Below, piece after piece: positions 6,175 to 63,081 of a stretch of 64,000 nucleotides of DNA. The notes under the pieces are model-generated. The model did no database searches. It was not told where the DNA came from and worked only from the letters and a program-made list of their open reading frames with translations. Source of the DNA: Gambelia wislizenii (lineage: Eukaryota; Chordata; Lepidosauria; Squamata; Crotaphytidae); the NCBI GenBank assembly GCA_030847615.1, contig JAUMIR010000001.1, forward strand, positions 160,925,001 to 160,989,000, in the 5' to 3' direction. The translations under genes and the position numbers were made by a program. Positions within the stretch are counted from its first letter, which is position 1; every line of letters starts with the position of its first letter.

Positions 6175-9100
6175 CTATTCTACTGTGGAGGTCATTGTCT
6201 GTCGAATTTTAACCGCAGCTGCGCAGAATCTGGCAACATTATAAGTTGTTCCTGGGTTGGTGTCTGAAAGCAACAAGTTTATGTAGAATTGTCCAGTGTG
6301 CCCTTGGTATTTATGCAACAGGGGTGAAATAAGGCTGAGACATATGTCCCTGTAGTATGAGCACTGGAGTAATACATGCTCTGTTGTTTCTATTTGGCCT
6401 GAGTTGCAGGGGCACAGTCTGTCTGAGAAGGGGATCTTCTTGTATCGGCCTTCAAGGACAGCTGAAGGGAGGGAATGACACCATGCAAGAGTAAAGGCCC
6501 TTCAATGTTTAGGTATTTCAAGTGTTGCTAAATATGCCAAAGGAGAGGCCAGATATCTGTTGGAGTCACTAGCAATGAAGGTTGGAGTGCTGGCTAGATA
6601 CAGTTGTCGCTCTATATCTACTACCCGTTGTTTGATAGTAACTTTCGCCCTATCATATCCCAGGCTAAGCAAAAGATCTGGAGAAAGGCCCAGCGTTGAA
6701 ATTTTAGTCATCACTGTCTGTTTCCAGCTGGATTGGAAATCATCACTTAAGGTTAGTGGAGCAAGGCCAGTGGGAAAGAGGGATAGTCTGAGCCAGTAGC
6801 TGAGTATGGTCACCCACACTCTAGCCTCCACTTTCATAAATCCTGATTCCAGTCTCAGAGCTGCGTTAGAGACACATTTTGGAGTTTGGAAAGCTGCTCT
6901 TAAAAATTTGGATTGGACAAGTTCTAATGGAGCAGGGTTGGGGAAGGGTCCCAATTGGGATCCATAAAGCAGTTGTGCTACTGGTTTGGCTTCAAAGAAT
7001 TTGAGCGCTGCAGGTAAATAGTGGCCTCCCCTTGTCTTAAGAAATTTGAGAATAGCTGTTGTACTCCTCTGTGCATTGCAAGCAGCATACTCCCCATGCG
7101 CTTTTCTACTACCAGTGGCTTGAAAAATTACCCCCAGGTATTTGAAGCAAGAGACCTGCTCAATCTTGTGGCCATCTATATTCCAGTTGTAGTTCTTAGG
7201 CCTTTTAGCGAATGCCATGATTTTAGTTTTTTGATAGTTGAGTTCTAGCTGTTCCACTCTGCAATATTGTGTTAGTGCTCTTAGTGCTCTTTTTAGGCCA
7301 ATGGGAGTTCTTGAAAGTACTGCTGCATCATCCGCATAAAGCAACGTTGAGATATGCCTTCCCTCTAATTTTGGGGGATGGAGGTTAGTGTTGTTGAGGT
7401 GATCCACCAAATCATTGATGTAGAAGTTAAACAGGAGTGGAGCTAGAATGCAGCCTTGCTTGACACCCTTCTCAGTGACAATGTCATTGGTGAGATGTCC
7501 CTGGGGGTTACATCTTACTTTTAATGAAGTCCCTTCATGCAGCATGCGAAGTAGATGGAGTAAATGTCGGTCGATTGAAGAAACCTCCAGTTTTTACCAC
7601 AGTTTGGTTCGGGATAGAGAGTCAAATGCTGCTTTAAAGTCTATGAAGGCAGCATAGAAAGAAACTGTGCTGCAGGTGGAGTATTTTTCAATAAGGTGGT
7701 GGAGTACAAGGCACTGATCTATGGTGGAAGCCAGCTTATTCTTCTGCAAGTATGTTTTCTTGTTCCAACCAGGTCTGAAATTTCCACTATAAGTGTCTTG
7801 CATAGAGTTTGCTGATTGTACTGAGGAGACTAATTGGTCTGTAGTTGACAATATCATCCTTGCTTCCTTTTTTATATATGGGGACAATGATTGCAAGGCC
7901 CCAATCCATTTGTTTTTAATGGCTTCTGAAGGTATTAATTCTTCCCCTGGAGCCTTCCCCATTCTCAGCTGGGCTACAAGGTTCTTGATCTCAGAGGCTG
8001 TCACTGGTGGCCACCTTTGGATATTTTCTATATTTTGGCTAGTGCATCCACTTTCAATGTAGTTGTCCTTATAAAGTGCTTGAAAGTGATCCTCCCATAT
8101 CCCTGGAGGGATGTGACAGCCCACTGTGGCTGGCCCATTTCTCTGGGAACTTGATGTAATATGCCAGAATAGAGCTGTGTTATTGGATCTGACTGCCTGG
8201 ATAAGTTGTGTCCAGTCAATTTTTCATGGCTTCCTTTTTCTTGTTCATCAGCAGCTCTTTGTAGTCTCTTTTCTGCTGGAGCAGCCGTTATTAGATAGGT
8301 AACCCTGATAAGTAACAATGAGGGCTTGTTTAGCATTAACACATTCCTTGTCAAACCATGGTTTGGAGTGGTGCTGTTGTTTCCACTGATGTGCGCTATT
8401 TTGATGGATTAGATATTGGTGTAGAGCTTGGATAAGTGTATTGTAATTTTCCAAGATTTCATCAGGGGACTCAGCTGATATCAGGGCAGTCCTAAGACGC
8501 TGAAGTTGGTCTGAAGCCAATACCTCACCTATTGTTTTGTTTAGCTGGAGGGTCCATTTAGCTCGGCGATAAGTCCTTCCTGATGGTGTCACAGAAAGGT
8601 GATAGCGCTCCCTGGTGTGTGTCTCCTGAGTGAAGTCACTAAGGTGTAGCCGAATTGGAAAATGATCACTTTCAAATCTGGGCATAACTTCTAAATACTT
8701 GGCATAGGGAAGAAGGTCCCTAGAAATGATTATGTAATCTATGGCACTCATTCTGGACCCAGAGAGATAAGTGAATTCAGCTGGACAGTCATTTTTCAGG
8801 GCACTATTTAGGATTTGAAGGTTCAGCCTGAATACTGTTTGATCCAGACAAAGTCCTGCAAAATTTTATTTCTTATCCTTTGAGCATCGGATGGGGTGGG
8901 TTCCATCATCTTCAAAATCATGAGGAGTGCATTGGGGCCCAGTCTGGCATTCAAATCACCCCCCAAAATTACAAATGCATTTGGGTTCTGCAACATGAGA
9001 TTAGCAGTGTATGATTCCAATTCAGCCCACAGGCCTCTGGTTTGGGATTTCTTCTTCACTGGAGGCATGTAGACATTTATTATCAGCAAGGTGCAATGGT

Positions 9101-11289: not shown

Positions 11290-31708
<20,419 letters not shown>

Positions 31709-32230: not shown

Positions 32231-34014
32231 CCCCTCTCTCTCTCTGGCTTTTCTTCGCAAACGAAGATTCTTATAAGGAAGCACTTATCCCACGCTTTCT
32301 GCAAGCGCGATGATGACTAAAAAGGCCAATCTGAGATAGACAAGTCCAGTTGAAGAAAGCACTGCAGAAGGTTTCCTCGGGTGATGTTACCGGGTTGTGA
32401 TTCTTTCTGCGTTGTCGTTTCTCTTCAAGACTAGTTCGGCGTGAGTTCTCAAATAAGGCTGCAGCATTGTGGATAGTGCATCTCCATGCCTCTTGATGTG
32501 AGGCCAGGGCAGACCACTGTTGGTGATCAATTTGGCCTAGCCTGAGATGTTGTTTCAGGGGGTCCTTATATCGCTTTTTGGGAGCGCCCCTCTTATGCTG
32601 ACCCGTGGCGAGTTCACCGTAGAGTAGTATTTTTGGGAGGTGATGGTCCTCCATCCTAGAAATGTGCCCTGCCCAGCGCAGCTGCGTTCTCAATATCATG
32701 GCCTCAATGCTGGTGATCCATGCTTGCTCAAGGACAGCAACATTCGTCACATAGTCAGTCCAGTGTATTTTTAGGATTGTGCGTAGACAGCGCTGATGAA
32801 AGTGTTCGAGGAGTCGTAAGTGGTGGCGATAGGTGACCCATGTTTCTGACCCATAAAGGAGAATAGACAGTACAATGGCTCTATACACACTGATTTTTGT
32901 GCTTCTCCTCAGGTGTTTGTTACTCCAGACTCTTTTGTAAAGTCTTCCAAATGCGCTATATGCCTTTGCTAATCTGTGATCGATCTCTTTGTCAATCTTG
33001 GCATCAGAGGAGATGATGCTTCCCAGGTAGGTGAACTGCTGAACGGATTTGAGCACAGATTTGCCGATGGCAACGTGGGGATGATGATGTTTGTCCTGTG
33101 GTGCAGGCTGGTAAAGAACTTCTGTTTTCTTCAGGTTGACTTCCAGCCCAAACAGCTCTGCAGCTGTTGCGAAGCAGGATGTTAGACGCTGCAGAGCTGC
33201 TTCTGTGTGGGCAACAAGGGCAGCATCATCAGCAAAGAGAAGCTCACGGACTAGATAGTTTAGAGTCTTAGTGCGAGCCCTCAGACGGCTTAAGTTAAAC
33301 AAGCTACTATCAGTATGGTAACGTATATAGATGCCATCATCTTCTTCAAGCTGTGCCATAGCCCTTTGGAGCATCGTGCTAAAGAAGATTGTAAATAAAG
33401 TTGGAGCAAGAACACAACCTTGTTTCACTCCATTAGTTATTAGAAACGGCTCTGAAAGCGCATCGCCATATCTGACTTGACCACGCTGGCCCTCGTGTAG
33501 CATGATAATCATTTTAAGGAATTTGGGGGGATATCCTAGTCTTTCCAGGATCTGCCACAGACCTTTTCTACTCACAGTGTCAAAGGCTTTGGTGAGGTCA
33601 ACAAATGTTACATAGAGACCCTTGTTCTGCTCTCTACATTTCTCTTGCAGTTGTCTAAGGGCAAATACCATATCTGTAGTACTCCTATTGGCTCTGGAGC
33701 CACCTTGGCTTCCAGGAAGAAGTTCTTCTGCAATGGCAGGAACTAATCTGTTCCTGCCATTGCAAGTATCCTTGCAAGGATTTTTCCAGCAATAGAGAGC
33801 AGTGTTATGCCTCGATAGTTTGAGCAATTGGATTTTGTTCCTTTTTTCTTGTACAGGGTGATGATGACTGCATCTCAGAGATCTGATGACAGTTCCCCCT
33901 TTTCCCAGCAATTCACAAGGAGTTCGTGGAATTTATTGTGGAGTACATGACCTCCATGTTTCCAAACTTCAGGTGGGATTCCACCAATCCCAGCTGTCTT
34001 GCTGTTTTTAATCT
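32231..34014 (-). mobile_element. 5'-truncated LINE with C-terminal zinc finger, TSD GGCGACTAATAA
   Basis: The target duplication GGCGACTAATAA is perfect at 32219-32230 and 34015-34026. It contains most of the RT domain and the full C-terminus. The 3'UTR ends GCGAAGAAAAGCCAGAGAGAG near 32231-32265 with a GA-rich tail. The same 3' end occurs at 37621-38265 and 60650-60777. The protein resembles the metazoan F52C9.6-type transposon protein (Ingi/Vingi- or I-like). The clade is not certain. Confidence 0.85.
32271..33870 (-). pseudogene. LINE RT and C2H2-type C-terminus (long open frame)
   Basis: About 530 codons are open. RT blocks: GLYVTFVDLTKAFDTVSRKG (about 33580), TNGVKQGCVLAPTLFTIFFS (about 33420), LLFADDAALVAHTEAALQ with intact catalytic FADD (about 33230). 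The distal domain has SILLYGSETWVTYRHHLRLL, AGHISRMEDHHLPK and RGAPKKRYKDPLKQHL. The terminus WTCLSQIGLFSHHRAC is a zinc-finger-like motif whose first Cys pair is altered (CSAFFNWTC). Upstream RT blocks are frameshifted at about 33770-33910, and there is no endonuclease because of the truncation. Confidence 0.85.
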
Positions 34015-41998: not shown

Positions 41999-43839
41999 CC
42001 GTATATTCCAGCGTATAAGACAACTGGGAGTATAAGACCACCACCCCAATTTCCAGCCAAAAATCTAGGCTTAGGCATATATTCGCCAGATAAGACCCCC
42101 CCCCCCATTTGGCTAGCTGGGGGAGCCTTGCCAGCTGATCCTCTTTGTTTCCCAACTCATGAGGATCTCCTCGTGAGTTGGGAAAGCGAACAGGATCAGC
42201 TGGCAGGGCAACATTCGCCCCTTTCTTCAACCTTCCAGTCAAACTGGACTCGAAGGTGGAGGAAAGGGGCGAAAATGCCCAGTTTGCCTCAGCAGCCCCC
42301 TTCCCTCCGTCTTGGCTCTTCCGAAGGGGACCAATGCGGGGGAAGCAGGGGCAGCCTGGCAAACCCCTAGATTCTCCCCCTCTCCCCACCTTCAAGGAAG
42401 GTGGGGAGAAGGGGCGAACATGCTCCGTTTGGCTCCATAGGGAGGACGCGGGGCGTGGAGCCGAACCCCGGGATTCGCCCCCTCTCCCCAACGTCAAGGG
42501 AGAGGGAGCGAATCTAGGGATTTAACTCCACAGCCCTGATCCCTCCTTCTGGGCTCCCTCCTCCCGCGATTCCCCAACCCACGGGAGGCTGCCCAGTCTC
42601 CTGGTGGGTTGGGGAATGCGGGATGGCCAGCTGGCTGAGGGGGTGGAGGGAGGGGGCTTCGCAGCCACCACCCCCTCTCCAAAGCACGGCTTTGGGGAAG
42701 GGGGTGACTGGGCGGAGGGTGGATGGGTGGCTGGGAGGAGGGGGCTTCCCAGCCACCCCCCTCCCCAAAGCAAGGCTTTGGGGAAGGGGGGTAGCTGGGC
42801 GGAGGGTGGCTGGATGGCTGGAAGGAGGGGGCTTCCCAGCCCCCCTCTCCAAAGCGAGGGGGGTGGATGGGCAGAGGGTGGGCTGGTGACGGGGAAGAGG
42901 GGGCTTCCCAGCAACCCCCCTCCCCAACGGCGCAATTCCGCGCCTTTGGGGAAGGGGGGTGGATGGGCGGAGGGTGGGCTGGTGACAGGGAGGAGGGGGC
43001 TTCCCAGCCACCCCTCTCCCCAACAGCACGATTCCGCGCCTTTGGGGAAGGGGGGTGGCTGGGCGGAGGGTGGGCGGTTGGCAGGGAGGAGGGGGCTTCC
43101 CAGCCACCACCCCTCCCCAACGGCGCGATTCCGCACCTTTGTGGAAGGGGGGTGGCTGGGCGGAGGGTGGGCGGTTGGCAGGGAGGAGTGGGCTTCCCAG
43201 CCGCCACCCACCCAATGGCGCGATTCCACGCCTTTGGGGAAGGGGGGTGGATGGGCGGCGGGTGGGCTGGTGTCAGGGAGGAGTGGGCTTCCCAGCCACC
43301 CCCCCTCCCCAACGGCACGATTCCGCGCCTTTGGGGAAGGGGGGTGGATGGGCGGCAGGTGGGCGGGTGGCTGGGAGGAGGGGGCGAATCCCGGGGTTTA
43401 GCTCCACGGCCCCGCATCCTCCTCCTGGGCTTCCTTCGGAAGGGAGCCCAGAAGGAGGGATCGGGGTCGCAGAGCAAAACGGGGCATTTTCGCCCTTTTC
43501 CTCCACCTTCAAGGAAGGTGGGGGGAAAGGGCGAATCTAGCGGTTTGCCTCGGCAGCTGCAGAGGCGATCTCGCGGCAGCCGCGGCAAACCACAACATTC
43601 GCCCCCCTCCTCTGTCTCCGTTGCTTCCCAAAGGGGGAGAAGCAGAGGAGGGGGGCGAATGAACTTCAAAACAGTTTGCTTCACCCCCCTGCCCCATCTC
43701 CTGCCTCTTCACTCAGTTTGCGAAGAGGCAGGAGATAGGCAGGCAGGCGAAGCAAAGTATATCCAGCGTATAAGACGACTGTCAATTTTGGAGGGCACTT
43801 TTGAGTGCCAAAAGTCATCTTATACGCCGGAATATACGG
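41999..43839. mobile_element. TA-flanked element (CCGTATATTCC TIR) with GC-rich minisatellite
   Basis: Ends CCGTATATTCCAGCGTATAAGAC and CTTATACGCCGGAATATACGG are near-perfect inverted repeats bounded by TA (41997-41998, 43840-43841). A second inner copy (ATATCCAGCGTATAAGACGACT) lies at 43759-43781. The interior is entirely GC-rich and partly tandem. No transposase frame is recognisable, so it is non-autonomous. The TIR family differs from the CAGTTGTCCC elements. Confidence 0.8.
42620..43385. repeat. Minisatellite of about 96-bp units
   Basis: Roughly eight units of GGGGAAGGGGGGTGGMTGGGCGG, AGGGGGCTTCCCAGCCACC and CCCCAACGGCGCGATTCCG. Spacings of 96, 97, 95 and 97 bp were measured at the CGCCTTTGGGG sites from 42941 to 43326. 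Earlier units are shorter. Because the period is close to a multiple of three and AT-poor, long Gly/Trp- or Pro-rich frames appear on both strands. Confidence 0.85.
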
Positions 43840-46899: not shown

Positions 46900-48013
46900 C
46901 AGTTTTAATATAGTTTGAACTCTGGAAACTATTTTAATCATTTGTTTTTAGATGTTTGCCTTCATTTCAGTGAATAGTTCAAACTAGTATGTATGTTTGT
47001 GTGCACACACTCATTGGCACATACAGATTTACCATATGGTTTTAAAGCCTTACTTAAAATTAACCTGGAGAAACCTAAGCTGCAAATCCATACCCTCTGA
47101 TGAAGCTGTGCCTTTGAAGTAAAGACCCAAAATATATTTTTAATTTGATTTTATCTATTGCTTTCAGTTCTCTGCAGAATTTCAGAGAACTGTTTGAAGC
47201 TTTATTTGAAATATTAGAAGCTTTATTTTTCTGCAAACTATGTAGCCCATGTGGGGTTTATATTCTTGTTATTTAACCTTAAAGCATGACAAACATTTTT
47301 GTCTGTCATGATAGTAATGTTTAAATCAAACACCACTGTTTTAATTGCTTGTTTCTCCACTATTAGAAGTCTTGACTCATTCTGCTTTTCACACTGTAGA
47401 CTGTTAGAATCTAATTATACTAATTCTTATAATTATTTCTTAATGGAAGACAGGAGAAAGGATGCAGAGACGTTGTTTTCTAAGCAGTCTACAGAAGAGC
47501 AAATATATCAGCAAGGTATTTCTCCCAGTGAGTAGATTAGCAGCAGAATCCAGTACAGTATAGATGAAATTATGGACCCCAGAATGTTTGGGGAGGAGCA
47601 GGGGGACTGAAGCCCCTCCTCCATGACTAGGCTGGGCCCTCCCCATAATGACAGGGAAAAATTGGCCACCAAGATTGCTATGTAGTTGAGCCTCCGCTAG
47701 GAATTATCAACCAAAAGCATACTAAATTACCATTAGTTTGCTATTGCTTTCATGGTATTCAGATTGTTACTAGCTTCAATTGGATGATGATGACGATGAT
47801 GATGATGATGATGACAACGACTTTAATACAACATATCCTAAGTCATCGTTATTTTGTAAAAACAGATCTGCACGTAGTCAAAATTAACAATGACCTGCTT
47901 GCCAGTGTTCAGCCCCCTACACACACAACAACAACCATTTCAGGGTCCCTGGATTATATAGGAGCTGGTTTTCAAATATACTCAAGAGTCCCAACTAATT
48001 TGTTAGGGTTTTT
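46900..48013. other. No gene recognised; contains a (GAT)n run
   Basis: Intergenic sequence. A GATGAT repeat at 47782-47814 is the only structured feature that I see. Confidence 0.5.
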
Positions 48014-48946
48014 CAGCTGTCAAATAAACTTTTTTTATTAAATATACCCATAAAATAATATTATCAAACAAATTGATACAATCAAATCCTCTCGCGCAAC
48101 CTTACATTTCACTCAATCAAACTAAAATACAACTTCCTCTCCAGCCTATGCATGATTATTTATGTAGATCTTTGTATCCCATTCATTGTATATATCTTAT
48201 ATTCTTAATTTCAACAAGTTACTGTCTATAGAAAAAATTTCCCCTTGTTAGACTGCTATTTACCTTGTTATTGATATATTTAACCACCGTATATCATAAA
48301 ACCATAAAACCGTAAAACTTCATTGGAATCTTGCTGAAACTGTTGAGGGACTGAAGTACTCATGCCTCTTATACATTTAACAAAATTTATCTTACTGTAG
48401 TTGGTTTTAACCTATTAAATATAAACATTGTATTTACCTAGGGATTACAGCAAAATTTCCCCATCTCCTCCCAACATAACTTGAAAAGCTGTTCCATGTT
48501 TCCCAATACTCTTCAACGTACTTACCTTTAAGTAATAACGTCAATTTATCCATTGCCACCATATCATATGCCTTTAATAACCACTGGTCTACTGTTGGGG
48601 TGTTTGGAGTTTTCCAGATTGAAGCGTAAGATATTCTTGCCGCTGCTAACAGGTAGAATATTAATTTCTCTTGTCCCCGATCAAGTTTTTCTTCATGTAT
48701 TCCTAATAGAAATATTTCTGGACTTAAAGGGATGTTACTCTCTAGTCTATCATTAATTATTCTCTGGACTTGAGACCAAAATTTTTTGGCCTTTTCACAG
48801 CTCCACCAGAATATGTTTGCATTTCCAACATTCGTTTTTCAGATTTGTGTACATTTTGGATAACTTATCTGGTGAGAGGTACCATCTAAAATACATCTTA
48901 CACCAATTTTTTTAATGTTGCTGCAAAGAGTTAATTTTATTTTAGA

Positions 48947-51900
48947 TTACCACATTTGTTCCCATTTTTTAAGTTCAATTGAATGACCAACATTTTGGGC
49001 CCATTTTAACATATTGTCTTTAACCGTTTCATCTTCAGTATCCCATTCGTGTAGCTGTTGATAAAATCTAGAAATTAATTGTTTGTTTCCAATTTGTGTT
49101 AATCTTTCCCATGTGGATTTAGATAAATCTATGCCTTCTAATTTCTCATCCATTTTAAACCTTTCGTAAACTTGTCTATATAGATACCAATGACATCTAA
49201 TTCCTTCTTCTTCTAATTTTTCTTGAGATTTAATATTTTGCTGACCTCCTTCCAACATCATTAGATCTTTATAAGTTATCCATTTTTGACCAGGCAATTT
49301 TTCTTTGCCAAAAAGCACTTCGTGGGGTGATAGCCATGAGGGCAACTTGGGACACATCCGTCTTTTATATTTGTTCCAGATTTTAAGTAAGTTTTTCCAT
49401 ATGAAATGATAACTGAATTTCTTATTTACCGACTCTTTATTATAAAACATATAGGCATGCCAACCATATCTATTTTTGAATCCTTCTAATTTCAGTAATC
49501 TTTCGTCCTCTAGAGATGTCCACTCTTTGATCCAAATCAAGCAACAAGCCTCATAATATAATCTTAAATTGGGAACTCCTAGCCCTCCTCTTTTCTTCGA
49601 GTACTGCAAAATTTTCATTTTTACTCTTGGCTTTTTTTCTAGCCAAATAAATTTCGTAATATCTCTCTGCCACTCAGTAAAAATCTTTGCGGTATGGATA
49701 ATCGGGAGCATTTGAAAAAGGAACAACTTTTTTGGTAAAATGTCCATCTTAATTGCTGAAATTCATCCCAGAAATGACAACTTCAAATTTTTCCAGTTAT
49801 TTAAGTTCTTCTTGATATCAATCCATATTTTTTTATAATTGTTTTGGAATAATTCTGTGTTTTTATTTGTAATATTAACTCCCAAATATCGAACTTTTTA
49901 AACTACCTTATATCCAGATATTGAAGTTATCTCTTTCATCTCCTCTTGTGTTAGATTTTTGGCAATTATAACTGTTTTGTCTGTATTAACCTTCAGACCC
50001 ATTAGACATTCAAAATCTTTTAGAATATACATAATTACTTTCATCTCTTCGAGCAGGTCACTCAATGAAATCATCATATTGTCCACGTATAATTTTAGTT
50101 TATAATTATATTTACCAATCTTAATTCCTGTTATTTTCTTTTCTTCTCTTATCCTTTTACTCAAGATTTCCAATTTGTAAAGTCTTTCCCTGCCTTTATT
50201 TTGTTCAAGATATCTATAATTATTTTCCAATTTACATTGTCAAAAGCTTTCTCAATGTCCAAAAATATTAAAGCCAGCTTCTTGTCAATGTGGATATCAT
50301 GATACTCAATTAAGTCAAGCACATGACGTACATTATCCTTTAGAAATCTGCCAGGAAGGAATCCTCTTTGATCTTCTTGTACCCAACTTTTAAGTATTTC
50401 TGTCAGTCTATGAGCCAATATGGAGATGAAAATTTTGTAATCCACATTTAACAGTGATATGGGCCAATAATTTTTTTGATCTTGGAGATCACGATTTTCT
50501 TTATGTATTAAAATGGTATTTGCTTCTCTCCATGATTCAGGGATAACTCCTTTTTTAATTTCTTCTAATATTTCCTTAAAAAGATTAATAATAAGCTCTT
50601 CCATACATTGATAATACTTTAATATAAAGCCATCATGGCCAGGAGCTTTCCCCAACTTAAGCCTTCTTATTGCTTCTGAAATTTCAATTTCCTCTATAGG
50701 TTGATTTAGACTACGTCTCTGTTCATCTGTAAATTCTGGTAGGTGTTCATCCTTTAAGAAGGATTCCATATTACACGTTGGAGTTCTTTGATTTTTATAT
50801 AGAGATGCGAAAAAATTCCTGAATACAGTTTTGATTTTATCCTGTTGTGTATATATTTGTTTTCCTTCTTTTACTTTAGCGATATGATTTCTTTCTTTCA
50901 TTTTTCTTAATTTAAAAGCAAGCCATCTACCCAGTTTATTCGAGTTCTCAAAATGAAATTGCTTGATGTATTGTAATTTTTTCCCTATTTCTTCTGATGT
51001 TGCAAGCGAAAGCTGTTCTTGTAAGATTTTAATTTCTGTTAGTATACCTTCCTTATGGGGAGTTGATTGTAATTCCTTTTCTTTAACTCTTATACTATTG
51101 TTGAGTTTAGATATTTTTTCCGTTCTCTTCTTTTTCAATTCTGCAGCTTGTTGTATAAAAAACCCTTGCATGACTGCTTTTGATGCCTCCCATGTAGTAA
51201 AAATGTTTGTTTGTCCATTTAAATTTTCCTCAAAATACCATTTGAGGGTCTGCTTCGTTTTTTTAAGCACTTCTCCATGATTTAATAAATTATCGCTTAA
51301 TCTCCAGTTATATTCTGTTCTTCTTTCCTTTATTTCTAATACCACTGGATTATGGTCAGTGCAAACTCTTGGGAGGATTTCCACCTTTTGTATCAGATTA
51401 CACATATTATTAGTTAGCAGAAAGAAATCAATTCTCGAGGAAGATTTGTGTCTTTCCGAATAAAACGTATAATCCCTCGCATCATTGTATAAGAATCTCC
51501 ACGCTTCGGTTAACATTAAGTTTTTTGTCATGGTCTCAAATGACTGTGGTAGTTTTATTTTTATTTTTCGATGATTTTCTGTCAAGGATTGGTGAAATCA
51601 CGCTGTTCCAGTTTCCCATCAGAATTATTCTATCATAATTATAGGACATTATTTTCAACATCAATTCTTCGTAAAACTTACGTTTGTTTTCTAGTGGTGC
51701 ATGAAGACCAATTACTAATGTCTTTGTATTTTGTATGGATATCTCCAATCCAATGTAATGACCATTTAAATCCTTGAAGAGTTCTTCCGCATGTATTTTC
51801 TAATTTATATAAATCACCACACCTTTTTTCTTTGTTTCTTTGCTTGCAGATACATATTCCTTACTAAGTTTTTTATTTTTTAACAATTTTACATCATCCT

Positions 51901-52023
51901 GTTTTATGTGCGTTCCCTGGAGGCATGCTACATCGTATTTTTTCCTACTCAATGAATGAAAAAATTTCTCTTTTCGGGCGAATTTAATTCTTTAACATTC
52001 CACGTTATAAGTCTAAAAGTCAT
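48947..52023 (-). pseudogene. L1 ORF2 (broken): endonuclease and reverse transcriptase with lost catalytic residues
   Basis: It starts 22 bases downstream of the ORF1 stop with MTFRLITWNVKELNSPEKRN. An early TGA follows. The endonuclease motif LQETHI reads LQGTHI and the GDWN motif reads GNWN, so two metal/catalytic residues are lost. RT contains LKLGKAPGHDGF, EDQRGFLPGRFLKDNVRHVL and LALIFLDIEKAFDNVNW, but the YADD box reads YVDN (about 50095-50070). The 3' domain (ITKFIWLEKKPRVKMKILQY, KRGGLGVPNLRLYY) is fairly intact. Frameshifts lie near 51570, 50190 and 49890-49750. Confidence 0.92.
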
Positions 52024-52044
52024 TTTGCTTTATTCTTACTTTGT

Positions 52045-53020
52045 TTATTCACCTATGTCTTCCTCGATTTCCTCCTCTTCGTCTCCTTCTTCCTTTTCCT
52101 CTGTCGGGTTTTCTTCACTTTCTTCTTCACCTTCTGGGTTCTGTTCTCCACTATCACCCTCTTTCCTGTCCTCCTGTTTCCTATTCACTTGCTCCTGCGA
52201 ATCTTGCATGTATTTTACTTTAGGTTTCAATTCTTTCATGTATTTCTCCAAAAATTCTTCCATTTTTCTTTACTGTATCTATTCTGAAAATTTTTTGTTT
52301 AAATTTAAAAGAGATTCCCTCCAATTTCTCCCACCTGTAGGGGATTCCCAGTTGTTTTAATTGGATTATCAAAGCATTATAGTTCTTTCTTTTCTTCAGA
52401 ATTCTCATTGGAATGTCTTTATATATTGTCACATCTGATCCTTCTATTTGAAATTTGTTAATGTAGTTTTGTTGTAAAATCATATCTCTTGTTTTTTTCT
52501 GCACAAAATAAACCACTATATCTCTTGGGAGACTTCTTTGTTGTGCCACTTTGGAAGAAATTCTGTAAATCTTGTCTATTTCCCACTCAAACTGTGTCTT
52601 TGTTTTTCCCACAAATTTAGCTAACTTAGGTATCAAGAATTTATATAAATCTTCATTTGTCTGTTCTTTTATCCCCCTTATCTTTATGCAATTCTCTCTC
52701 CACTTTAATTCTTGCAGACTTCATTCATCCAATTCTTGACCTTGGGCTCTTTCTAAAAGATCTGTTCTTGTTTCTAGTTGTTCCACTTTATTTTCTAATA
52801 CCCCCATCTTTTCCTTTAATTGTTTTGAATCCACTGTAATCTTCTCGATTAATTCTTTTATTCCTTTTAATTCTTTCTTCATGTCTTGTTTAAGTTCAGA
52901 TTTCATTTCTCTTATTTCAGTCCGTAATATTTTCAATTCTTCCAAGATAGGTGATAAGTTTGGATCAGATGACCTCCTCATCATTTGTATTGTTGTTTGC
53001 ATTGTCCTTTTTGCTGCCAT
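52045..53020 (-). pseudogene. L1 ORF1 (broken): coiled coil, RRM/CTD, acidic tail
   Basis: ATG at 53020 gives MAAKRTMQTTIQMM and then a heptad-rich coiled coil (ELKILRTEIREMKSELKQD ... VLENKVEQLETRTDLLERAQ). An in-frame TGA at about 52721 precedes SLQELKWRENCIKIRGI, which starts the RRM. The CTD has PRDIVVYFVQKKTRDMILQQ. A frameshift at about 52260 leads to the Glu-rich tail (GEEESEENPTEEKEEGDEEE). ORF1 packages L1 RNA. This copy cannot do so without readthrough. Confidence 0.88.
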
Positions 53021-55770
53021 TACTATATATATATATATATATATATATACTATATATATATACTATATACTTTCTATCCTTCCTATATAAATTCTCTGTA
53101 TCTCAATTTATCTGTCTCCCGACTCTAACATTTTTACTGTAATCCTCTAGAGAGATAAAATGTTAGACAGTGTTGTAATGTAATATATACTCAGTTGATT
53201 AATTAATTAATAAGTTAATTACTTATAAATTCAAAGATCAAAGTTCAGTCTTTCACAGTGTCAGGGAAAACAGGGGAGAGCACTGCAGCCCTTAGCTCAC
53301 AATCTATATGACCTAATACAACCAACTTCCTTCTTCAGCAGTAACCAAATTTTCTAATATCTATTAATATGATTAAGATATGGTTAAGATATGTTTAAGT
53401 AATCAGTTATACCAAAATAGTAATGCTGTTTGGCAAATAAATTAGTAGAAAGCACTAAACAGAAAAGACACCCTAGAGAGATAGGAACAGAGGAAAAAGA
53501 GAAAAAGAGAGAAAAACTTAAGAAAGGAAGAAAGAGAAAAAAAAATTTTTGAAAAATCAAAAACTGAAAAAGCTGGAATAATGAAATAAAAGCTGGGATA
53601 ATAAAAAATGAAAGAGAATGGAAGAAAGGCTGGAATAATAAAAAAAATGAAAGAGGATGGAAGAGAGGGGGGGAAGGGAAAGAGAAGAAAACCCTATTGA
53701 GATTAAATTGATCCTCTCAGCACACACTTGTATAATTCGTTAACTCGGCAGAAACCACTCAATTGTTTTTATCCTAAAAAAAAGAAGAAGAAAAAAATTC
53801 CTTTCCCTCCTTCTTCAATAGAAATTATCTTCAATAAAATATAATCTTAAGTTGTGTGTTCACCTATATATTTAACTGTTCCCCTTCCCCCTCTCCCTTC
53901 CCTCCTCCCCTCCCTCTTCCTCCTTTCTTCCCCTCCCTTCCATAACAGTTGTCTTCTCACTTAAATCTTAGCAATTGTTCTAAATTCCCCACACACACTT
54001 CACACCACAATAATTCCTTCCCGTTAAGTCACACTTCTACTCTTACAGAGCTATCACTTCAGTCCACGTCTTTTGCATTCTCCTCACTTATTCAACCACT
54101 CCTTTCTCCCTCTTTAACTTCACAGCTTCTAACGCTTCCCCGTCCTCTGCCTTAGCTTGTTTACCTTCCTCCCGATTACTACCCTTTCAGGCCAGCCACT
54201 ATCTTCACTCTCCTTCTGAGTCTATCTTTATTTGTTCCCCACCAATACACAATGCGTCATCTACATGTCTTCTCCCTTCTTCTACAATCAAACTACAAAC
54301 CACTTCCCCCCACCTTCTGCACTTACTTCAATCCTTCTTAAACACAGCACTCACGCTTACTCTTCCGCTCAGTCCATCCCACATTTTCTCTATCTCCTGT
54401 CTCCCTTTACCAACACAGTTCTGTAATCTGATTCACTTCTATCCTATCCCTCTACGGCTTCCCTCCTCCCTTGTTTGGTGCTCTTATATTTTAATTCCCC
54501 CTTCCTCCTTTACATACCTAATTCCTCTTTCCCAATCCAATATCTTGGCTTTACCTAAACCTAAACCTTTAATTTTTCATCTCCTTTCTTGTTTTAATCC
54601 CAGATTTCTTCCAAAGTCTCCCCACAATCCCCTTACGACAGTCACCCTTCCTTTATATCCATCCCCCTGTATTGTCCTTCCCTCCTCCCCTTTACCCGTT
54701 GGTTGTCAAGACCTCCCTTTCCCAAAACCAAAATCACTTCTCTTATATCCTCTTATTTATGTAACTTCCCTTTTAAATGACCCAATACAGTTTAGTACAG
54801 CTCAGTCCAGTCCCCCCCAGCCCAGTCCATTCCGTTCTTTCCATCAGTTCAGTTCTCCTTGATCTCCTTCTTCCCATCTCCGCTGGTCTGCGCTGATATG
54901 TCGTTTGTCCTCCTCCACTCTTCTTGACACGTCGGTAAGTTTTTTGTTGTTGTTCAGTGCTGTATAATAAGTAATCAAAATGTTGCCATATTGGCTTCGT
55001 CTTTGTCCTTTATAAATCCCTCAATGAATCCATGTACATCCAATGTAAATCCACCAACACAGTTCTGTAATCCGTTCAGAATAAACCCCGCAAGTTGTCT
55101 CTTCTGGTGTAAAATATACAAAGTATAACACTGTTTCACTATATCCCAGGCAGTAGATTTTAGATCTTAGATGATGTCCCATGACTTCTAGTTGTTTTCT
55201 ACTGCTTATGAGACAGTCCAGTAAATCAACAACAGCAATACAGTAACAGTGTCCATTAGAGGTGCTTTAAGCACAGTCCCCCTCAACTCAAATTCTTCAC
55301 AGATAGCTGTAATAGATCGTGCATATAACGTAATCACTTTCAGTTAAAAGTCAATATTAATTGTCCAAACAAGTTGTATCTGTCTTGCTTGTGAAACTTA
55401 AATAGTCAGGCATTCAATGATCACGAGTAAAGCTGGATTTTCCCATAGGTGAAACTATTTACATGGTGCTTACATAAAATTGGTGGCGGCGCTTGTGCCG
55501 AGAACCCTCAGCTGCAGACACGTGGCGGTGGGTTGCTCCGATCACCTCTGCTCTATTGCCCTGCCCGATCTACCTTACAGTGTCAGAGCCATCAGGGACA
55601 AACTGAGCAGGCACTGGATCTTCGTGAGCCCCTCTGCTTTCTCCGTGCCAGGATAGAGATTCTGCCGATCTTGATTGCCAGTGATCAGACTGCAAACCTC
55701 GTGCTGCCAAACTTTCACTAGGAGCTTCTTAGTGAAAGTTTAACTGCGACGCCATAGCCAACCGGAAGTC
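53021..55770 (-). repeat. L1 5'UTR
   Basis: The non-coding leader of the L1 starts with GACTTCCGGTTGG. A (TA)n run at 53024-53070 sits next to the ORF1 start. From 53870 to 54900 the plus strand is almost purely pyrimidine, so the sense transcript is GA-rich. No tandem monomers of mouse type were seen. Confidence 0.8.
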
Positions 55771-56079
55771 CAGCTGTCAAATAAACTTGATGGTGAATAG
55801 ATGCTAAGAGTTTTCTTCCTTTACTATTTACAATTTAAAGAACGCTTATTTTGTTACATCTTCTCATACTGTACAGTCAAATGTTTCTTTTTGATGCAGA
55901 AAGTTGAAGTGGTGGAAGCTCCAAGAAATGTTATCTTCCAGATGGCTGCAAGATCTTACTGTTCAGGCAAATAGAGGTCAGATGAGGAACAGGTTCTTTT
56001 AATGGTAGATTTATGTCCATGTGCTTTACGTTTTGTTTTGAGAGAAAGCCTGGGGTTCAAAATTAATCAAAGAAGGATA

Positions 56080-61138: not shown

Positions 61139-61380
61139 CTATTTGCTGTAAAGAGTTTCTAGAAGTAAGCTGCTTACACTGACATCTCCCAAGAAGGGCT
61201 TGAAAAAGAGTTCTCCAACAGTATTTGGTTGGAAGCTTCTCAGAAATCCAAGCAGTTCCATCAGCCAAGTGTATCTCCTCAGGTTTCTGGAATGAATCAT
61301 TGAGGTGAATTCCATCAGAGTTCGCTTGGCTTCCCATTGAAGAGCCTGGATGTAAGTACAGCATTTTAGGTCCTGGAGGT
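61139..61380 (-). CDS. NR0B-like gene, exon 2 (residues 192-271)
   Basis: A TCCTTTACAG acceptor precedes 242 bases. With the G carried over from exon 1 they encode DLQDLKCCTYIQALQWEAKR through ELFFKPFLGDVSVSS to LLLETLYSK and a TAG stop at 61141-61139. Length and spacing align without gaps to the human SHP exon 2 product (LFFRPIIGDVDI). The exon contains only a short ATG-initiated frame and is overlapped by a longer meaningless frame, so it is easily missed. Confidence 0.93.
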
Positions 61381-63081
61381 CTGTAAAGGAATGACACTAT
61401 TTTATATTTATATTTATAGATCACTAAGATCTATACATTTAGAAATACAGAGAGGATTTTTTTTTTCTTGTAGCTGCTGTGCTTGTTTCCTAAAGACAGG
61501 ACAGTATGAAGAAACAAGGCAATGTCGTTGTTGGGCTCTGGATATGGCAGATGAAGACCTCTTTACAATAAGCAACATTGTGCCTTTTTGAAAAGAATGA
61601 TTTGCACAGACAAATTTTAATTTCCTTCTCATAGTGCTTCAAGGACCCTGTGAAGGTTACTTATACTATATCTTTCATTACAGAAAATCTTACTAAGTAG
61701 GTCAGTCTATCAAGCCATGGCCACTCAGTCAACTTCATGAGGGTATGTGTGATTTTTTGTATTGTAATTCCCAGAATTCCCCAGCTAGCATGACCTTTTC
61801 CCCAAGCTCTGCAAATGACTCCACTATTGAAGAGTCTGTTATTCCAAATTTTCACAGTGAATTCTGTTCTTACATTGGAGCAGTAACATTACATATAAAC
61901 TGTGCAGTATACATTGTTCCTATGTGTAGTATAAACTGTGCAACATGTATGTCTCACCTGCAAGCACCTTTGTTACAACAGACAATTTAAATCTTAATTG
62001 AAGCATAAATATACATGTTCCTTATTCATTCCGAACATGTACCAGCATGTGTGTGTTTCTCTAATTTAACACCTACATAAGATATTTGAAGAGCTGTAAA
62101 TACAAACATCTTGAGCCAATCATTGCTCCCAACTAGAGTGGACTCACTGAATGTATGGAGCTCACATAAATGTTCACTTCCCAGCTTCCCATCGATTCAG
62201 TGAATAGTTAGGACTAACAATTTTAAGCAGATCCACGGCCTCCCAAAAGAGCAAGGTATAGTATAGAATTCATAGATTGTCAAATGTGAATTTAAAAATA
62301 CATCTAGAACTCAGCTTAAAATGGAGGTAGGGTGTTGCTTTTTCACACAGCTCTCAATGTATTTCTAGGCTTACTCCAAACTATGCATTCTTGGGGTGCA
62401 ACCTGGCCAGTAGCAAAATGTGAAACTGAAAGTCCTTTTGAATCCAATGGGATTCAACACAAGGAATTGGGGACAATAGTGCAGCTGTTGCACTAATGGG
62501 GACTTACCAGGGTTGAAAAGAACAATTCCTTTGAGATAGGCGTATTCTTTTGCAGAAATGTCTGAATCCCAGAATTTCCCCAGGATGTTTTTTAGCTTCT
62601 GAACTTCTGTCAATGGTGCACCCAAAAGATAATTATGTAGTTGTTCATTATCTGTCAGAGTCTGGTTAAGAAGGATCGTTTTCAACAAGCTAGGAACTGA
62701 GATCTCTTCCAGTTCAAAATCAACTTGTTCCTGAGCTAGTCCCAATATGAAGAGAGGTGCCCAATACTGTTCTATCAGTAAGAGCTGGTCTTCTGGAGGC
62801 AGCTGAAAAAATGAAGGCAAATTTTTTATAAAAGTGACTGTTTTCAGAAGCACTTTTGAAGCTCTAAGACAGATGATGTCAGGAGTTTTCAGAACGACCC
62901 GTCTGTTCTCCTTACAGGGGCAGTCAGTAGATGGAAACAAAGGGGGAAGAGGGAAATCTTGATGGGTCCATTGAGTCCTCACTCGCTGTTCCTTGTTAAG
63001 GACTCCATAGAGGTTGCTGGTAGGAGAAGGTGAGTTGCTGCAATATTTTCCACTCTTCTCAAATGGCCCTTGGAAAGCCAT
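61139..63081 (-). CDS. NR0B-family orphan nuclear receptor (SHP/DAX1-like), complete two-exon gene, 271 aa
   Basis: Exons 63081-62508 and 61380-61139 join in frame to 271 codons plus TAG. There is no zinc-finger DNA-binding domain, as in SHP (257 aa) and DAX1. The N-terminus has one NR-box-like motif, NLYGVLN (residues 23-29; SHP has ILYALL, DAX1 ILYSLL). The ligand-binding domain shows VTFIKNLPSFFQLPPEDQ (82-99), YWAPLFILGLAQ (106-117), VPSLLKTIL (129-137), SAKEYAYLKGIVLFNP (176-191), CCTYIQALQW in exon 2, GELFFKPFLGDV and a C-terminal SSLLLETLYSK. The intron splits the Asp codon after LFNP, exactly as in SHP and DAX1. Family members repress other nuclear receptors by binding their coactivator surface. 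The paralog is uncertain: core residues look more SHP-like, CCTYIQALQW more DAX1-like. No frameshift or stop was seen. Confidence 0.93.
61381..62507 (-). other. Intron of the NR0B-like gene
   Basis: This 1,127-bp intron has GTAAGT at its 5' end and TTTACAG at its 3' end. No recognisable repeat or RNA gene was seen inside. Its position within the LFNP/D codon is the family-diagnostic intron position. Confidence 0.9.
62508..63081 (-). CDS. NR0B-like gene, exon 1 (residues 1-191)
   Basis: I place the start at the ATG at 63081-63079 (MAFQGPFEKSGKYC). It has purine at -3 and G at +4, and gives an N-terminus of SHP-like length. The frame stays open upstream to a TTG near 63153, but no ATG is there. 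The exon covers the NR-box region and helices 3 to about 8 of the ligand-binding domain and ends at a GTAAGT donor after LFNP plus one base. Confidence 0.93.

Follow-up and report, generated by a model that had tools for sequence, protein, structure and literature searches.

A third NR0B nuclear receptor gene upstream of BCKDHB in the lizard Gambelia wislizenii

Introduction

The bile-acid, steroid and gonad programmes have SHP (NR0B2) and DAX1 (NR0B1) among their standard regulators, and to our knowledge these two are the only NR0B genes of mammals; Fonseca et al. are said to have reported, in 2020, novel NR0B members in cartilaginous fishes. Here we describe a third NR0B gene, found on the minus strand of a 64,000-nucleotide stretch of the Gambelia wislizenii genome (contig JAUMIR010000001.1, below C1, positions 160925001-160989000; the whole stretch is called the window). 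Like NR0B2, it encodes a ligand-binding domain with no DNA-binding domain, has its intron in the same codon, carries a PSF..LP helix and an LYxxL motif, and has TENT5 and SH3BGR paralogs nearby; with NR0B1 it likewise shares architecture, intron codon and motifs, and its scores against the two in PDB are nearly equal. The three nevertheless fall into separate clades, those of NR0B2 and of the third gene each with shark members, and within this genome the third protein is 51% identical to NR0B2 over 139 residues of exon 1 and 34-35% identical to NR0B1 (exon 1 part). The third gene adjoins BCKDHB, whereas NR0B2 lies near the gene for 14-3-3 sigma (SFN).

Orthologs already exist in databases under the name 'NR0B2-like', for example P0003 of Sceloporus undulatus, which is 80% identical over its full length; the name treats the gene as a kind of NR0B2, which our trees contradict. 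Among the titles and abstract openings listed in a literature search, none describes a third tetrapod NR0B gene and none came up under the names 'NR0B3' or 'NR0B2-like', which is no proof of absence. Nuclear receptors were earlier counted in 12 vertebrates, chicken, mallard, softshell turtle and Xenopus tropicalis among them, with no novel subfamily reported (PMC4339804).

Gene structure and family membership

The gene is made up of two exons (Table 1), whose donor (CTG/GTAAGT) and acceptor (TTTACAG/AC) join an in-frame reading of 816 bases, that is 271 residues and a stop. A first-pass annotation, made from the DNA letters alone, had drawn the same exons, GTAAGT and TTTACAG signals and 271-residue frame, and was right in every coordinate. 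Across the 271 codons there is no stop, frameshift or damaged splice site, and the N-terminal methionine is a start point common to most aligned orthologs. In a phmmer search against PDB the protein matched best NR0B1 (3f5c, E 2.9e-40, 141.7 bits) and NR0B2 (4nuf, E 2.1e-39, 138.9 bits), with TLX as the next-best receptor at 78.2 bits; the near-equal scores agree with the mixed SHP/DAX1 appearance remarked on in the first-pass annotation. Its reading of the product as a ligand-binding domain lacking a DNA-binding domain also held, since Pfam recognised the nuclear receptor ligand-binding domain (PF00104, Hormone_recep, E 5.9e-16) and, in the 271 residues scanned, no other family and no zinc-finger DNA-binding domain; an alternative upstream exon may exist. 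Because NR0B chains are the best PDB matches, Hormone_recep is found by Pfam and the Sceloporus protein matches over its full length, the frame is not a product of chance. A chance frame or pseudogene was also rejected on the lack of stops, the canonical splice sites and the 80% identity to Sceloporus. The fold comparison of a model of the Sceloporus ortholog is broader, with many other receptors among the matches and NR2F6 tying with the NR0B chains.

The assembly (2.47 Gb in 68 contigs) was searched with the third NR0B protein at E up to 10. The 14 matches are strong at three places only, namely the C1 gene itself, C2:10565216-10571266 and C22:264731298-264734167, and the next one, on C10, reaches 30.7 bits. 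The C2 gene (C2:10565105-10571275) encodes a 254-residue NR0B2 that scores 240 bits to mouse SHP, the two stops reported in the C2 match falling where the match overruns the exon end; the C22 gene (264.73 Mb) encodes a 316-residue NR0B1. Separate copies of both described genes are thus present. In all three genes the intron breaks the same Asp codon, that of LFNPD, in keeping with the family-specific position proposed at the outset. A 14-3-3 sigma gene, identified by its PDB match, lies 75 kb from the C2 NR0B2, an arrangement found in the human genome too, and an adjoining frame (L015:3290-3862) may be GPATCH3, Pfam having given no match.

The open frame, the splice signals, the common intron position, a separate clade and common neighbour families establish a third NR0B gene in a genome that also has NR0B1 and NR0B2. 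We consider it quite probable that the fuller reading is correct as well, in which the predicted 271-residue ligand-binding domain without a DNA-binding domain likely serves as a corepressor docking on DNA-bound nuclear receptors, and in which mammals and several further lineages have likely lost the gene.

Predicted function

Two motifs point to a corepressor. LYGVL near the N-terminus belongs to the LYxIL type of the NR0B group, a pattern present in 95 of the 104 third-clade members of at least 250 residues and in all 120 NR0B1 proteins. PSFFQLP is the counterpart of the DAX1 repressor helix, given as PCFXXLP in PMC5423462; within the third clade the pattern occurs in a loose form in 124 of 136 proteins and in the strict form P[CS]F..LP in 44 of 136, and it is absent from TLX and TR4. 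In the model of the Sceloporus ortholog a helix at 260-269 matches the C-terminal segment at the activation function 2 (AF-2) position. Repressor helix, N-terminal motif and the modelled fold of the ortholog together lead us to predict a corepressor that would bind other nuclear receptors and repress them. Like DAX1 and SHP, the protein would have no DNA binding of its own and would instead insert its PSFFQLP helix and LYGVL motif into the AF-2 groove of a partner receptor in the active state. By analogy with the DAX1:LRH-1 structure, the first partners would plausibly be the NR5A receptors LRH-1/SF-1; once docked, the protein would displace coactivators and recruit corepressors.

It is unlikely that the gene is functional in some other capacity, for instance as a ligand-sensing or activating partner. 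DAX1 is described as a coactivator as well as a corepressor (PMC5423462), but the repressor helix and the N-terminal motif are common to the third NR0B protein, DAX1 and SHP.

Phylogeny and origin

Trees were built from rows hand-picked from three lists of protein matches, which hold the best 120 of 165 for the third NR0B search, the best 120 of 1,108 for NR0B1 and the best 120 of 869 for a shark-profile search. A 68-row tree has TLX and TR4 as its root and sole outgroup rows, and against these the NR0B rows stand together at 100/99. The NR0B1 clade (27 rows, 98/97) holds the C22 gene and the NR0B2 clade (5 rows, 100/100) holds the C2 gene, mouse SHP, two sharks and paddlefish; both exclude the third NR0B protein, which falls in a third clade of 32 rows (99/96) comprising five cartilaginous fishes, P0245, frogs, salamanders, caecilians, turtles, crocodile, birds and lizards, with an internal branching close to species order. 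This clade is recovered at 99/94 in a 63-row tree from which the outgroup, both mouse rows and Tiliqua were removed. In a 39-row tree the protein sits among tetrapods in a 21-row clade (100/99) that is distinct from NR0B1 and NR0B2 and that the three cartilaginous rows join at only 94/63, and in a quick tree of 294 sequences the third clade is formed by 135 database proteins and the C1 protein, including all 120 matches of the third NR0B list. The suggestion of a third paralog is therefore borne out, the C1 protein belonging to neither described clade while both other genes exist in the same genome. That it was retained in reptiles was too narrow a statement: reptiles are in the clade, but so are cartilaginous fishes, frogs, salamanders and caecilians. 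Both age and range of the gene exceed those of reptiles; it is neither specific to them nor hidden.

P0245 branches just outside all tetrapod rows of the third clade (100/99), is 58% identical to Callorhinchus P0120 and possibly comes from a lungfish or coelacanth. The 68-row tree also contains a fourth clade of 2 rows (99/100), P0279 from Callorhinchus milii and P0282 from Carcharodon carcharias, cartilaginous fishes alone among the rows used. Fonseca et al. may have described the very genes that appear here as shark rows in the third and fourth clades, and part of the story of the third gene is probably already in print for cartilaginous fishes.

Forced unions were assessed by the approximately unbiased test (p-AU). 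Joining the 27 non-shark rows of the third clade gave 1e-36 with the two tetrapod NR0B2 rows, 0.016 with all five NR0B2 rows and a borderline 0.0505 with NR0B1; a union of the third-clade sharks with the fourth clade gave 0.0501, and joining the third and fourth clades 0.47. These values are compatible with more than one order of the deepest NR0B splits. The separation of the third clade from tetrapod NR0B2 is firm, and its apparent separation from NR0B1 rests on branch supports. A copy of NR0B1 is rejected by tree placement, the forced union being merely borderline.

Neighbouring families were examined with TENT5, SH3BGR and HMGN, which had been picked beforehand from the human map, with TENT5A, SH3BGRL2 and HMGN3 at 6q14 and TENT5B, SH3BGRL3 and HMGN2 at 1p36, and were then sought in the assembly. 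TENT5 matches lie on C1 at 1.05 Mb from the third NR0B gene, on C2 at 0.34 Mb from NR0B2 and on C3 at 8.46 Mb, with a weak match containing a stop on C12. Matches to SH3BGR lie on C1 at 0.30-0.33 Mb from the third gene, on C2 at 1.05 Mb from NR0B2, on C3 at 8.74-8.75 Mb and on C22 at 278.9 Mb. HMGN was matched on C2 (11.18 Mb), C3 (8.67 Mb), C22 (278.96 Mb) and, weakly and with stops, on C12; none was found on C1. The TENT5/SH3BGR block, together with the NR0B copies on C1, C2 and C22, makes a pattern pointing to the early vertebrate genome duplications.

Two points weigh against so old a third gene, namely the borderline p-AU for a union with NR0B1 and the weak tie of C22 to the duplicated block, because SH3BGR lies 14 Mb from NR0B1 there. 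The former also speaks for a younger copy of NR0B2 or NR0B1, made in sauropsids or tetrapods, that changed quickly and was pulled towards sharks by long branches, as does the support of just 94/63 with which sharks join in the 39-row tree. Such a duplicate is nonetheless improbable: the clade with sharks reaches 99/96 and 99/94 in the larger trees and its inner order is near the species tree, union with all NR0B2 rows has a p-AU of 0.016, and TENT5 and SH3BGR paralogs surround both the C1 and C2 loci.

On C3, members of TENT5, HMGN and SH3BGR lie within 0.3 Mb of each other, and the assembly search gave no match to the third NR0B protein on that contig; this block may be the place where a fourth NR0B copy was lost. 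For a larger scenario we see about an even chance: early duplications would have left a full quartet of receptors lacking a DNA-binding domain. Sharks through to lizards and birds would have kept the third ('NR0B3') as a corepressor in its own right, with distinct partners or tissues, and separate losses would have removed it in mammals, ray-finned fishes, snakes, geckos and the chicken-duck line; the fourth, once near TENT5/SH3BGR on C3, would survive in cartilaginous fishes only. If that were true, the third gene would be gone from most laboratory species but Xenopus, and a whole arm of receptor repression would be unstudied.

Distribution and database names

The closest database proteins are from Phrynosoma (81% identity) and Sceloporus (80%, full-length match), among the best 120 of 165. 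No mammal, snake, gecko, chicken-duck bird or ray-finned fish is named among the third-clade matches listed, the genomes of those groups not having been searched; four members (P0042, P0084, P0245 and P0261) carry no species name. That list ends at 243 bits, above which a true ortholog should score, but the search needs shared five-residue words. By hand count, the best 120 of 1,108 NR0B1 matches include at least 8 marsupial, 12 snake, 6 gecko and 8 chicken-duck entries, so these groups are represented in the database. Varanus, Elgaria and Salvator are also among the NR0B1 matches listed yet are not named among the third-clade ones, and the lists may thus overlook real cases. Judged by these database lists, mammals and several more lineages have likely lost the gene; the loss in mammals supposed in the first-pass annotation fits the lists, as no mammal is named, while mammalian genomes themselves were not searched.

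The possibility that the G. wislizenii gene is a decaying or dead copy of one that works in other vertebrates was also considered. The lack of a snake or gecko among named members of the matches listed, an N-terminal motif in the C1 protein that departs from the usual form and the long branch of the skink Tiliqua would suit such decay, but 271 codons without a stop, frameshift or damaged splice site and the 80-81% identity to two phrynosomatid proteins make it very improbable. Hardly credible is the ordinary NR0B2 (SHP) moved beside BCKDHB, a translocation entertained in the first-pass annotation and consistent with the database names NR0B2-like or NR0B2 and the 51% identity over 139 exon 1 residues: NR0B2 is at home on C2 near 14-3-3 sigma, so the third gene is not a moved copy, and it is the C2 gene that shares a clade (100/100) with the NR0B2 proteins of mouse (SHP), paddlefish and sharks, the C1 protein lying outside that clade.

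The concern that automated annotation may have missed or truncated the gene applies to some models, such as Anolis P0004 (labelled LOW QUALITY) and P0084, which reads on into the intron; in general, annotation has found the gene across numerous species, commonly as a complete model (271-275 residues), and has mislabelled it, mostly as 'NR0B2-like'. Partial bird proteins called plain 'NR0B2 protein' (e.g. P0067, P0069 and P0091) fall in the third clade and not in NR0B2; judged by this placement, the bird labels are a systematic naming error. With the third gene named 'NR0B2-like' or 'NR0B2', endocrine studies of reptiles, birds and amphibians can mix two genes. Xenopus tropicalis, which has the third NR0B (P0247) and its own NR0B1 (P0259), is a laboratory species carrying the gene. 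P0245 and P0042 come from short contigs (1,049 and 1,056 bases) whose 276 residues read straight through the intron codon, which fits spliced transcripts in their own species.

The locus and its surroundings

Table 1. Features of the third NR0B gene and its neighbour, in window coordinates
Feature	Position	Strand	Details
Exon 1 of third NR0B gene	63081-62508	minus	574 bases, ATG at 63081 to donor; codons 1-191 and first base of Asp-192 codon; 195 residues matched in own assembly
Intron of third NR0B gene	62507-61381	minus	1,127 bases, GTAAGT...TTTACAG, inside Asp codon of LFNPD
Exon 2 of third NR0B gene	61380-61139	minus	242 bases, ends in TAG stop
LYGVL (residues 24-28), LYxIL-type N-terminal motif of NR0B group	63012-62998	minus	pattern match
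PSFFQLP (residues 89-95), counterpart of DAX1 repressor helix PCFXXLP	62817-62797	minus	pattern match
LLLETLYSK (residues 263-271), C-terminal helix at AF-2 position	61168-61142	minus	ortholog alignment
BCKDHB, six matched exons	31612-11276	minus	neighbour, about 29 kb downstream

The placing of the gene upstream of BCKDHB in the first-pass annotation was correct: six exons were matched on the same strand, about 29 kb away, the one at 13717-13884 matching human BCKDHB (1dtw_B, E 2.1e-34), and a Transket_pyr Pfam domain lies in this region at 18523-18660. Candidate receptor sites in the window were not commoner than in shuffled sequence, with 5 HNF4-type direct repeats of spacing one (DR1) against 6.8 expected and 3 NR5A-type sites against 4.2, and none of either type lies between the third NR0B ATG and the window end. 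Rfam families gave no hit in the window at the gathering threshold.

Tandem arrays rich in GC, built of 61-192-base units, occupy 15504-16153, 17197-18101 and 42857-43385, the first two inside BCKDHB introns, where both strands show long open frames that are spurious products of the repeats. Reverse transcriptase (RVT_1) frames occur on the minus strand at 6505-7593, 32274-33932 and 50164-51597, one of them just upstream of the first BCKDHB exon, and are likely pieces of retroelements of the long interspersed nuclear element type. Window positions 48001-56000 show strong negative GC skew (to -0.33) together with AT skew on the plus strand, in a region that overlaps retroelement frames.
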